Shown piece by piece: positions 13,132-15,020 of a stretch of DNA of 64,000 nucleotides. Made by a program: the position numbers and the translations under genes. Source of the stretch: Clostridium pasteurianum DSM 525 = ATCC 6013 (GTDB taxonomy: Bacteria; Bacillota; Clostridia; Clostridiales; Clostridiaceae); the NCBI RefSeq assembly GCF_000807255.1, contig NZ_CP009268.1:4060384-4124383 (forward strand), given 5' to 3'. How positions within the stretch are numbered: position 1 is the first letter of the stretch; each line of letters starts with the position of its first letter. The notes under the pieces are model-generated. The model did no database searches and had not been told where the DNA came from. It was given only the letters and a program-made list of their open reading frames with translations.

Positions 13132-13200
13132 AAATTTTTCCTCCTTGTATAATGTAGTCATAACATTCAATAGAAAACTATCTTGAATTCTAACGAACAT

Positions 13201-13539
13201 TACAACTCATTTCTTTTAATTTATTCGAAGATTTTCTACCCGATAGGGTGTACTAATCTCATCTAACTTAGTTTTCTATTTTTCCCAAGTGGGAATCCAT
13301 ACTAGTAAATATTGATGTATAATATCTCCTGAATAGAAGATAGATGTATTCCTCCTGGGAAGTAACTCTAACGAGTCATTGATACCCGAAAATTAGCGTA
13401 TCATTCCATCAGTGAGAGTTCTATGTTTAGCTGGTTGGGTTTCCCTTTGGGAATTACCCGTGTCACAAACAAGGTTATAGAATTACTGATAGAAATGGAA
13501 TATCTATTCTATCTCACAAAGCAAAGGAGATATTATTTT
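13201..13539 (+). mobile_element. IS110 element 1, 5' non-coding end (candidate bridge RNA region)
   Basis: About 340 bases without a gene before the transposase, rich in short hairpins: 13282-13295 (TTCCC, loop AAGT, GGGAA) and 13437-13459 (GGGT-TTCCC, loop TTT, GGGAA-TT-ACCC). In the IS110 group this end encodes the bridge RNA that pairs with target and donor DNA. The exact element boundary is unknown, because the family has no clear terminal inverted repeats; the first 70-100 bases next to anfD may be native anfH-anfD intergenic DNA. Confidence 0.5.
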
Positions 13540-14835
13540 ATGAGTAAATTTTTTTATAGACCAATAGTTGGAATCGATGTATCAGCAGACTTTTCAGTAG
13601 TTGCTATACTAGCACCTGACGGTGAAGTTTATAGAAAGCCTTTTAAAATTAAGCACAATAGAAATGGTTTTGATTACCTAGTAGATCAAATAAAAAAAGC
13701 GGAAGAAGAGTTTAACATGAAAACGGCAATTTTCATGGAATCTACTGGTGTATACCATCTTACTCTTTTCCACTTTCTTAGGGATACATTTGAAACATGT
13801 ATCTTAAATCCACTCATTACTAATTGTAACAAGAATGGAGACATAAGAAAAGTGAAAAATGATAAAAAAGATGCATTAACCATTGCTAAAATAGGCAAAT
13901 TTCAAAATGTTAAATATACTTCTGCATTTGATATTGAAATTTATACCTTAAAAGCTCTCTGTAGAGATTACTATAAGTTTACTGATAGTAAATCTACTTT
14001 TAAGAAAAAGCTTTCTACCGACTTAAAAATTATTTTTCCTAGCTATAGCTCTGTTTTTTCAAACATTACTTGCAAAACATCAATAGCAATTTTAAAAGAA
14101 TATTCAAGTCCTAAAGCTATCTTAAATGCTGATAAAAATGAGTTAATAGATCTTATTCGCAGTCATTCAAGAAAAGGACTAACATATAGTGAAAAAATCT
14201 ATAAAAAGCTAATTGATGCTGCTGAAGAAGCTATTTACATTGGTCTTAAATCGCCTAGCCTGTTTGTAAAAATCATGAACACAATTTCTGTAATAGAAAC
14301 TTTAGAAAATCAGCTTAACAATTTATTAAATGAAATTCATTCATTGATGAAAAGCAATAGGATTTCAGAGCAATTTAAGAAAAATGTTCAATTGATTTAC
14401 TCAATACCAGGTATTGGTGAATTAACTGCCATCACAATAATGAGTGAAATAGGCAATATTAAAGGTTTTGTAAAAGCTAAACATTTAGTTGCTTACTTTG
14501 GTATTGACCCATCTGTCAATCAATCTGGTAAGTTTAACAGTAATAAAAATACTATGTCTAAACGTGGTACCAGAATAGGCAGAAGAGCCTTATATGCTGT
14601 GGCATTAGCATCCATACGAACCAGTAGAAGCGGTGAACCTATAAACAAAGTTTTACTTACCTACTATAAAGAAAACCTAAATGGTAAAAGCAAAAAGGTT
14701 GCTTTAGTGGCAATAATGCATAAACTTGTTAATTACATATTCTCCGTCCTAAGGAACCAAAAAGAGTATGAAATACGTGATCCTAAAATACATATTAAAA
14801 TGTATCTTAATAATGGTTCTACTACAGCAGCCTAA
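13540..14835 (+). mobile_element. IS110 family transposase (element 1)
   Basis: DEDD-type recombinase of 431 residues. The N-terminal RuvC-like domain begins PIVGIDVSADFSVVA with acidic residues in IFMESTGVYH and RKVKNDKKDALTIA. The C-terminal Transposase_20 domain has IYSIPGIGELTAITIMSEIG, the catalytic-serine-type segment and KRGTRIGRRALYAVALAS. ATG 13540 has AAAGGAG 9 bases upstream; the longer frame from 13423 has no such site. The frame is complete, so the element may still be active. It is inserted between anfH and anfD and read in the opposite direction to them. It differs clearly from the second IS110 protein in this window. Confidence 0.9.
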
Positions 14836-15020
14836 CGGCTAAAAACTTAAAGACTAATCATCTTACAATTAATTCCATTGTTCGTGCTTTTTCAATGGAT
14901 TATTTGCTATGCAAATTTTTACTCATAAATTATTTTTTTAATTTTTATTGACTTTTACTAGCTGGTCTTTATTTAATACCAAAATTTAACTTCTTTATTT
15001 TATAACTACTGATACAGCTC
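14836..15020. mobile_element. IS110 element 1, 3' end and anfH flank
   Basis: AT-rich DNA between the transposase stop and the anfH stop. It starts with a short hairpin (CAGCC-TAAC-GGCT type at about 14829-14843), then unstructured sequence. The right boundary of the element is somewhere here. No ORF and no minus-strand promoter for anfDGK was recognised. Confidence 0.4.

Follow-up and report, generated by a model that had tools for sequence, protein, structure and literature searches.

The Fe-only nitrogenase operon of Clostridium pasteurianum DSM 525 is interrupted between anfH and anfD by an insertion sequence which, judged from its sequence, is very probably a recently amplified, bridge-RNA-guided element of the IS110 group that is programmed for ribosome-binding sites. 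We lean, further, towards the view that a long-lived clostridial IS110 group keeps a bridge-RNA guide that copies the anti-Shine-Dalgarno sequence of the ribosome, and that each insertion rebuilds the Shine-Dalgarno (SD) sequence that it enters. In the mechanism that we propose, the excised circle would assemble a promoter across its joined ends, this circle-borne promoter would then make the bridge RNA, and the recombinase would insert the circle at an SD that pairs with the guide. The point of exchange (AG^GAGG in mRNA sense) borders the SD on its upstream side and the core is copied, so that the gene that follows is left with its SD and start codon whole.

An IS110-group element between anfH and anfD

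The window analysed here is a stretch of 64,000 nucleotides (contig NZ_CP009268.1, positions 4,060,384 to 4,124,383), and all coordinates refer to it. A first-pass annotation of this DNA had described intact anfH, anfD, anfG and anfK genes on the minus strand, with a complete IS110-family element between the first two. Both descriptions hold. All four genes are open frames over the cut-offs of their NCBIfam models: anfH (15021-15866, minus strand; model nifH), anfD (11554-13131, minus strand, start at 13131; model ANFD), anfG (11188-11538, minus strand; model anfG) and anfK (9784-11172, minus strand; model anfK). A weak Rfam match to mir-7177 inside anfH was taken as chance. The gap between anfH and anfD is exactly 13132-15020 (1,889 nt), and the element that splits the operon there is an insertion sequence of 1,821 bp (13146-14966, plus strand, antiparallel to the operon), delimited as the block shared, with identical ends, by nine copies in the genome. 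The separation of anfH from anfD, earlier put at about 1.9 kb, is likewise borne out, the element adding about 1.8 kb (1,823 bp).

Several features place the element in the IS110 family and, within it, in the IS110 group. Its recombinase (431 aa; 13540-14835, plus strand) scores over cut-off for PF01548, PF02371 and NF033542 and combines a RuvC-like DEDD domain with a Tnp_20 domain carrying a catalytic serine; residues D13, E67, D108, D111 and S329 align with the active site of IS621. The non-coding left end is 394 bp long versus 131 bp for the right end, and a conserved RNA lies upstream of the recombinase. A dinucleotide CT core stands on both sides in 9/9 copies, with no longer target duplication: at the left junction (13144-13145) it precedes TGTATAATG in all nine and equals the AG of the anfD SD on the minus strand, and at the right junction (14967-14968) it follows ACTAGCTGGT in all nine. 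A pair of subterminal motifs, GTAATGTTCGT at 13193-13203 (minus strand) and ATTGTTCGT at 14877-14885 (plus strand), looks like a subterminal inverted repeat; of the four relatives checked, L137 and L140 have a comparable pair and L123 and L129 do not.

The 4,352,101-bp genome holds nine full copies, eight besides the anf copy. Eight of the nine are identical, and the ninth differs by one extra A (a 1-bp insertion) in the recombinase gene only; this near-identity points to recent spread. A tenth match (L010; G000:C1:2024763-2024887) is a solitary left-end relic of 125 bp with 82 percent identity which, read by eye, adjoins a CCTCC motif ahead of a pilin-like frame.

The two ends of the element also appear suited to build a promoter when joined. 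A -35 box TTGACT in the right end (14948-14953, plus strand) and a -10 box TATAAT in the left end (13148-13153, plus strand) would, in a putative excised circle, be set 17 nt apart across the RE-CT-LE junction. We predict this junction promoter by analogy with IS621, for which the accessible text of PMC11208160 describes a promoter rebuilt across the RE-LE junction of the circle. A second TATAAT (13318-13323, plus strand), common to the window copy and nine aligned close relatives, is a possible internal promoter for the bridge RNA.

The insertion rebuilds a Shine-Dalgarno sequence

The CT core lies within the SD of anfD, read on the opposite strand, a position that the first-pass annotation missed. 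This SD (AGGAGG, 13140-13145, minus strand) was re-formed by the insertion, and relatives carry an SD before anfD as well; the anfD side now reads ACAAGGAGGAAAAATTTATG, with SD and start codon intact. The left flank is CCTCCT in 8/9 copies and CCCTCT in the other, so that the nine empty sites, written in mRNA sense with a caret between CT core and left flank, are AG^GAGG eight times and AG^AGGGGAA once. At seven of the nine the SD is followed at normal spacing by an ATG and an open frame, an insertion at initiation signals of the IS900 kind, and in 7/7 of these the element runs antiparallel to the gene. The genes entered include anfD, a nifH-like gene of a nitrogenase-like cluster, two PTS IIB genes, pspA and a dipeptidase gene. 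The two exceptions are L005/L070, where the copy cuts a small coding frame after 63 open codons, and L008/L073. The nifH-like gene (L069, G000:C1:3616000-3627900, with the IS copy at 5031-6851 in front of it at its SD) heads a cluster of NifH and two component-1 genes.

Relatives were drawn from one scan of genome contigs (32 loci) and from 206 family genomes, of which 28 had a match at E <= 1e-60. Family-wide, 43 of 58 distinct sites have an open frame whose start codon lies at SD spacing, in a count that omits six of the 32 loci (L018, L021, L031, L040, L041 and L042, which lack ends, are truncated or are too distant) and from which the re-fetched sites L143, L144 and L146 were removed. The same arrangement of SD, start and open frame was found, among the fetched copies only, at 7/8 sites in G174, 8/8 in G135, 3/3 in G053 and 3/3 in G003 (one of these last with a TTG start), genomes whose recombinases are 43 to 62 percent identical to that of the window.

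Is it the motif that is favored, or the working ribosome-binding site? AGGAGG sites pass the start and frame test in 33 of 40 cases across the family (tallied by hand, two TTG starts at L028 and L141 included), versus 19 of 41 AGGAGG control sites from some 84 kb of the same genome, namely L075, L076 and the window with the element taken out (Fisher p = 0.001). The C. pasteurianum copies taken by themselves (7/8 versus 19/41) give a borderline p = 0.052, and the element may therefore simply target the AGGAGG motif. It is safe to state that the SD motif is targeted; an added preference for real ribosome-binding sites beyond the motif is likely, and is in part open to explanation by selection. 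Such sites are abundant, the genome containing 343 matches to AGGAGGA-N2-9-ATG versus 132 for a reversed control pattern. The 3' ends of 16S rRNA contain CCTCCT too. Insertion at those ends was considered and rejected, GGATCACCTCCT standing beside the left end in none of the loci checked.

A predicted bridge RNA with an anti-Shine-Dalgarno guide

The 394-bp left end aligns among relatives into an RNA with two loops. The predicted bridge RNA (approximate limits 13325-13520, plus strand) has 37 consensus pairs, 22 of them with compensatory change, in an RNAalifold consensus of 22 left-end sequences; a fold of 13154-13539, which takes in nearly all of the left end, surpasses its shuffles by a moderate margin only (z = -2.15). 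In IS621, according to the accessible part of PMC11208160, the left guide serves the bottom strand and the right guide the top strand, with the core included in each pairing, and the first loop of the RNA predicted here can be read in the same way. Its left target guide plus core, AUUCCUCCU (13348-13356, plus strand), equals the left target plus core and is anti-SD-like, the target sequence that it matches being UUCCUCCU, an anti-Shine-Dalgarno sequence. The left end has a single TTCCTCCT, a sequence present in 28 of 5,000 mononucleotide shuffles. The right target guide plus core, AAAAUUAG (13389-13396, plus strand), is the reverse complement of the core and the expected right target CTAATTTT; at the anfD site, 0/3 non-core positions agree with this guide.

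The second loop would hold the donor guides. The left donor guide UUUAGCUGGUU (13426-13436, plus strand) matches the right end of the element (TAGCTGGT), which is the left donor, and this match to the element's own ends is clear (UAGCUGGU). The match of the right donor guide is partial and weaker than the left, its region ACAAACAAG (13465-13473, plus strand) being partly complementary to the core and left end (CTTGT).

Two of the 12 left ends in the G135 genome (L121 and L122, identical IS copies) are without the target-binding stem-loop through a 76-bp deletion. Both copies nonetheless occupy SD sites, and may have used RNA from other copies to move. In six of the remaining ten left ends the target loop could be read directly.

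Guides and sites covary among lineages

If the predicted guides choose the target, guide and site should change together, and this is what the comparison of lineages shows. The left guide matches its site with a score of 0.772 versus a permuted mean of 0.537 (23 lineages, 56 sites), and the right guide with 0.698 versus 0.440 (18 lineages, 51 sites, covering only lineages with a readable right guide and right flank); 0 of 20,000 permutations reached either value, in lineages that are related and so not fully independent. A first permutation run used 17 lineages, chosen because a search pattern found their guides, and a second added L020, L023, L030, L033, L039 and G174; the test omits L018, L021, L031, L040, L041, L042, L036 (target loop not found) and L145, and for the two G135 copies lacking a target loop, scoring used the guide of the remaining copies in that genome. 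As expected of a bridge RNA, the target-loop guides fit both sides of the target and covary with it, the right side at anfD (0/3) excepted.

The individual cases are in keeping with these scores. Altered guides stand at matching non-SD sites in L013 (TTTTTACCT), L034 (TTCTTACCT) and L022 (CAGCCCCT); guide and site in L012 are TCACCTCT, an SD variant; and L014, L015 and L024 have one repeated flanking sequence common to all three. Right guides ending in AAG go with CTT sites, those ending in GAG with CTC sites and those ending in TAG with CTA sites, except for two of the nine C. pasteurianum copies (anfD included), which lie at CTT. The left guide is matched in only 3 or 4 of 7 positions at two of these nine copies, two of eight in G135 and two of four in C. 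manihotivorum, and also at L016, L023, L025, L032 and L039. In L020, L023 and L033 the guide ends in CA instead of CT at the core.

This covariation bears on two explanations in which the RNA would not select the site. Copies might have landed at random, with those inside genes then lost and those just upstream of an SD surviving as nearly harmless, and only one of the nine C. pasteurianum copies (L005/L070) was indeed found cutting a coding frame. We regard this as very improbable, however, since all nine copies share one core register within CCTCCT or CCCTCT, and guide and site covary among lineages with non-SD sites included; selection may sharpen the SD pattern further. Alternatively, the recombinase protein, or a coupling to translation or transcription, could recognize ribosome-binding regions with no part for RNA in target choice. 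The recurrence of this location over recombinases of 43 to 100 percent identity would fit, but close recombinases use different sites exactly where their guides differ (L013, with 82 percent identity, and L034, with 93 percent over the 112 residues available), which leaves such recognition extremely improbable. We therefore prefer targeting by the guide.

The empty site and the nifI genes

Removal of the element and one core restores an anfH-anfD spacer of 66 nt, with the junction TAA...AATAAAGGAGGAAAAATTTATG. The four closest Anf relatives with an adjacent anfH (L044-L047; AnfD identities of 87, 84, 84 and 84 percent) have spacers of 97, 24, 43 and 32 nt after the stop codon (100, 27, 46 and 35 nt with it), and in each an SD lies just ahead of anfD (AAAGGAGGAA or GAGGAGGA). 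At a further locus (L050), a nifH 63 percent identical to the AnfH of the window lies directly upstream of anfD, and at three other anfD loci (L048, L049 and L051) no nifH match was found within 1.5 kb upstream.

The first-pass annotation had raised the question whether the element replaced nifI1 and nifI2; another reading of the insertion would combine such a replacement with a silencing of anfDGK. The element does part anfH from anfD, and a more distant relative (L052 in G077, the only such case among the relatives examined) has two P-II-like genes between nifH and anfD, their matches lying below the models' cut-offs. Yet the empty site is clean, and the short, direct spacers of the four closest relatives are too short for nifI and contain none. 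We therefore reject the replacement of nifI, and consider the combined reading scarcely credible.

Possible consequences for anfDGK expression

The insertion increases the distance between the anfH promoter and anfDGK by 1.8 kb, and the sequence now ahead of anfDGK includes the antisense of the recombinase gene, so that their transcription needs read-through or an unproven promoter; on this arrangement of the sequence, it is probably reduced. A scan of both strands for simple intrinsic terminators found none, and read-through may therefore occur. Sigma-54-like sites number 10 in the window versus 7.0 expected, with none between anfH and the next upstream gene. The same genome also has nifD and vnfD over family cut-offs, and loss of the Fe-only enzyme may therefore be tolerated. 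A search of the whole genome (G000) with the nifD model gave 39 component-1-like matches (nif, vnf, anf and many nitrogenase-like pairs).

The element could, on the other hand, act as a mobile regulatory cassette that gives the downstream gene an outward promoter or leader and so keeps anfDGK on. Conservation is strong in the outermost 60 bp of the left end, and the outward strand carries an RNA match that is sub-threshold in Rfam (13210-13294, minus strand; RT-18 with 35.0 bits against a cut-off of 41.3, RT-17 with 30.1 against 40.4), names for which we found no paper in the literature searched. The outward strand also opens a frame, within 13132-13200 (minus strand), that runs in frame into AnfD and would be fused to it; the left end likewise opens such a frame into the target genes of L068 and L072. 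A weak outward promoter-like site (9/12; 14560-14531, minus strand) lies inside the recombinase gene. Against a cassette, a scan limited to the sigma-70 consensus found no outward promoter in the left end, promoter-like sites in the scanned region number 3 versus a shuffle mean of 10.1, and sequences needed for recombination would by themselves conserve the outer end. On balance, we think a regulatory role unlikely and retain guide-directed insertion as the reading of this locus.

Relation to known elements

The element shares with IS621 and the IS110 group a left-end RNA with target and donor loops and a junction promoter (both predicted here), a CT core, and a DEDD and serine recombinase, as these are described in the accessible parts of PMC11208160 and PMC11208158. 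According to the same texts IS621 targets REP elements, whereas the guide of the window element is anti-SD-like; the window recombinase is also longer, at 431 aa versus 328 in the IS621 PDB chain. With ISEc21 and the seekRNA-guided IS1111/IS110 elements it has in common an upstream non-coding RNA (the IS110 type) that matches both target strands, and a natural re-programming among relatives, but the targets given for those elements in the accessible text of PMC11187229 are others.

That an IS110-family element targets ribosome-binding sites is already known from IS900 of Mycobacterium avium subsp. paratuberculosis. The accessible text of PMC8141618 gives its target motif as CATGNNNNNNTCTCCTT, a start codon plus an SD on the opposite strand. 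It also refers to Doran et al. 1997, the title of which states that IS900 targets translation initiation signals. Both elements are thus of the IS110 family and directed to such signals. IS900 reportedly has hed, a complementary-strand frame across the element (PMC8141618, accessible part), unlike the window element, in which a long hed-like frame is absent and the sole minus-strand frame of at least 60 aa wholly inside the element has 70 aa. In PMC11187229, as far as its text is accessible, the word 'Shine' is absent and the sole 'ribosome binding' passage concerns a cargo construct; the accessible text of the bridge-RNA and seekRNA papers likewise lacks 'Shine', and none of its few 'ribosom' passages is about targets. 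A partial literature search, mostly without subscription journals and without bioRxiv preprints, found no paper on a bridge RNA programmed for the SD. Three things appear to be new here, from the sequences compared: the guide, the covariation between guide and site, and the regeneration of the SD.

Importantly, an operon split that seems accidental becomes a predictable, guide-encoded event, and the guide offers a mechanism for the targeting of ribosome-binding sites by IS110-family elements that was reported for IS900 before bridge RNAs were known. The locus also carries a warning, since anf genes may look intact though their operon is split. The element would provide a naturally occurring bridge RNA whose target is short and abundant, along with several guide-swapped lineages for testing the rules of targeting. 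If our proposal is true, an anti-SD guide makes a few hundred ribosome-binding sites per genome into targets, and would amount to an RNA-guided strategy of spreading that does little damage to the translation of the genes entered.
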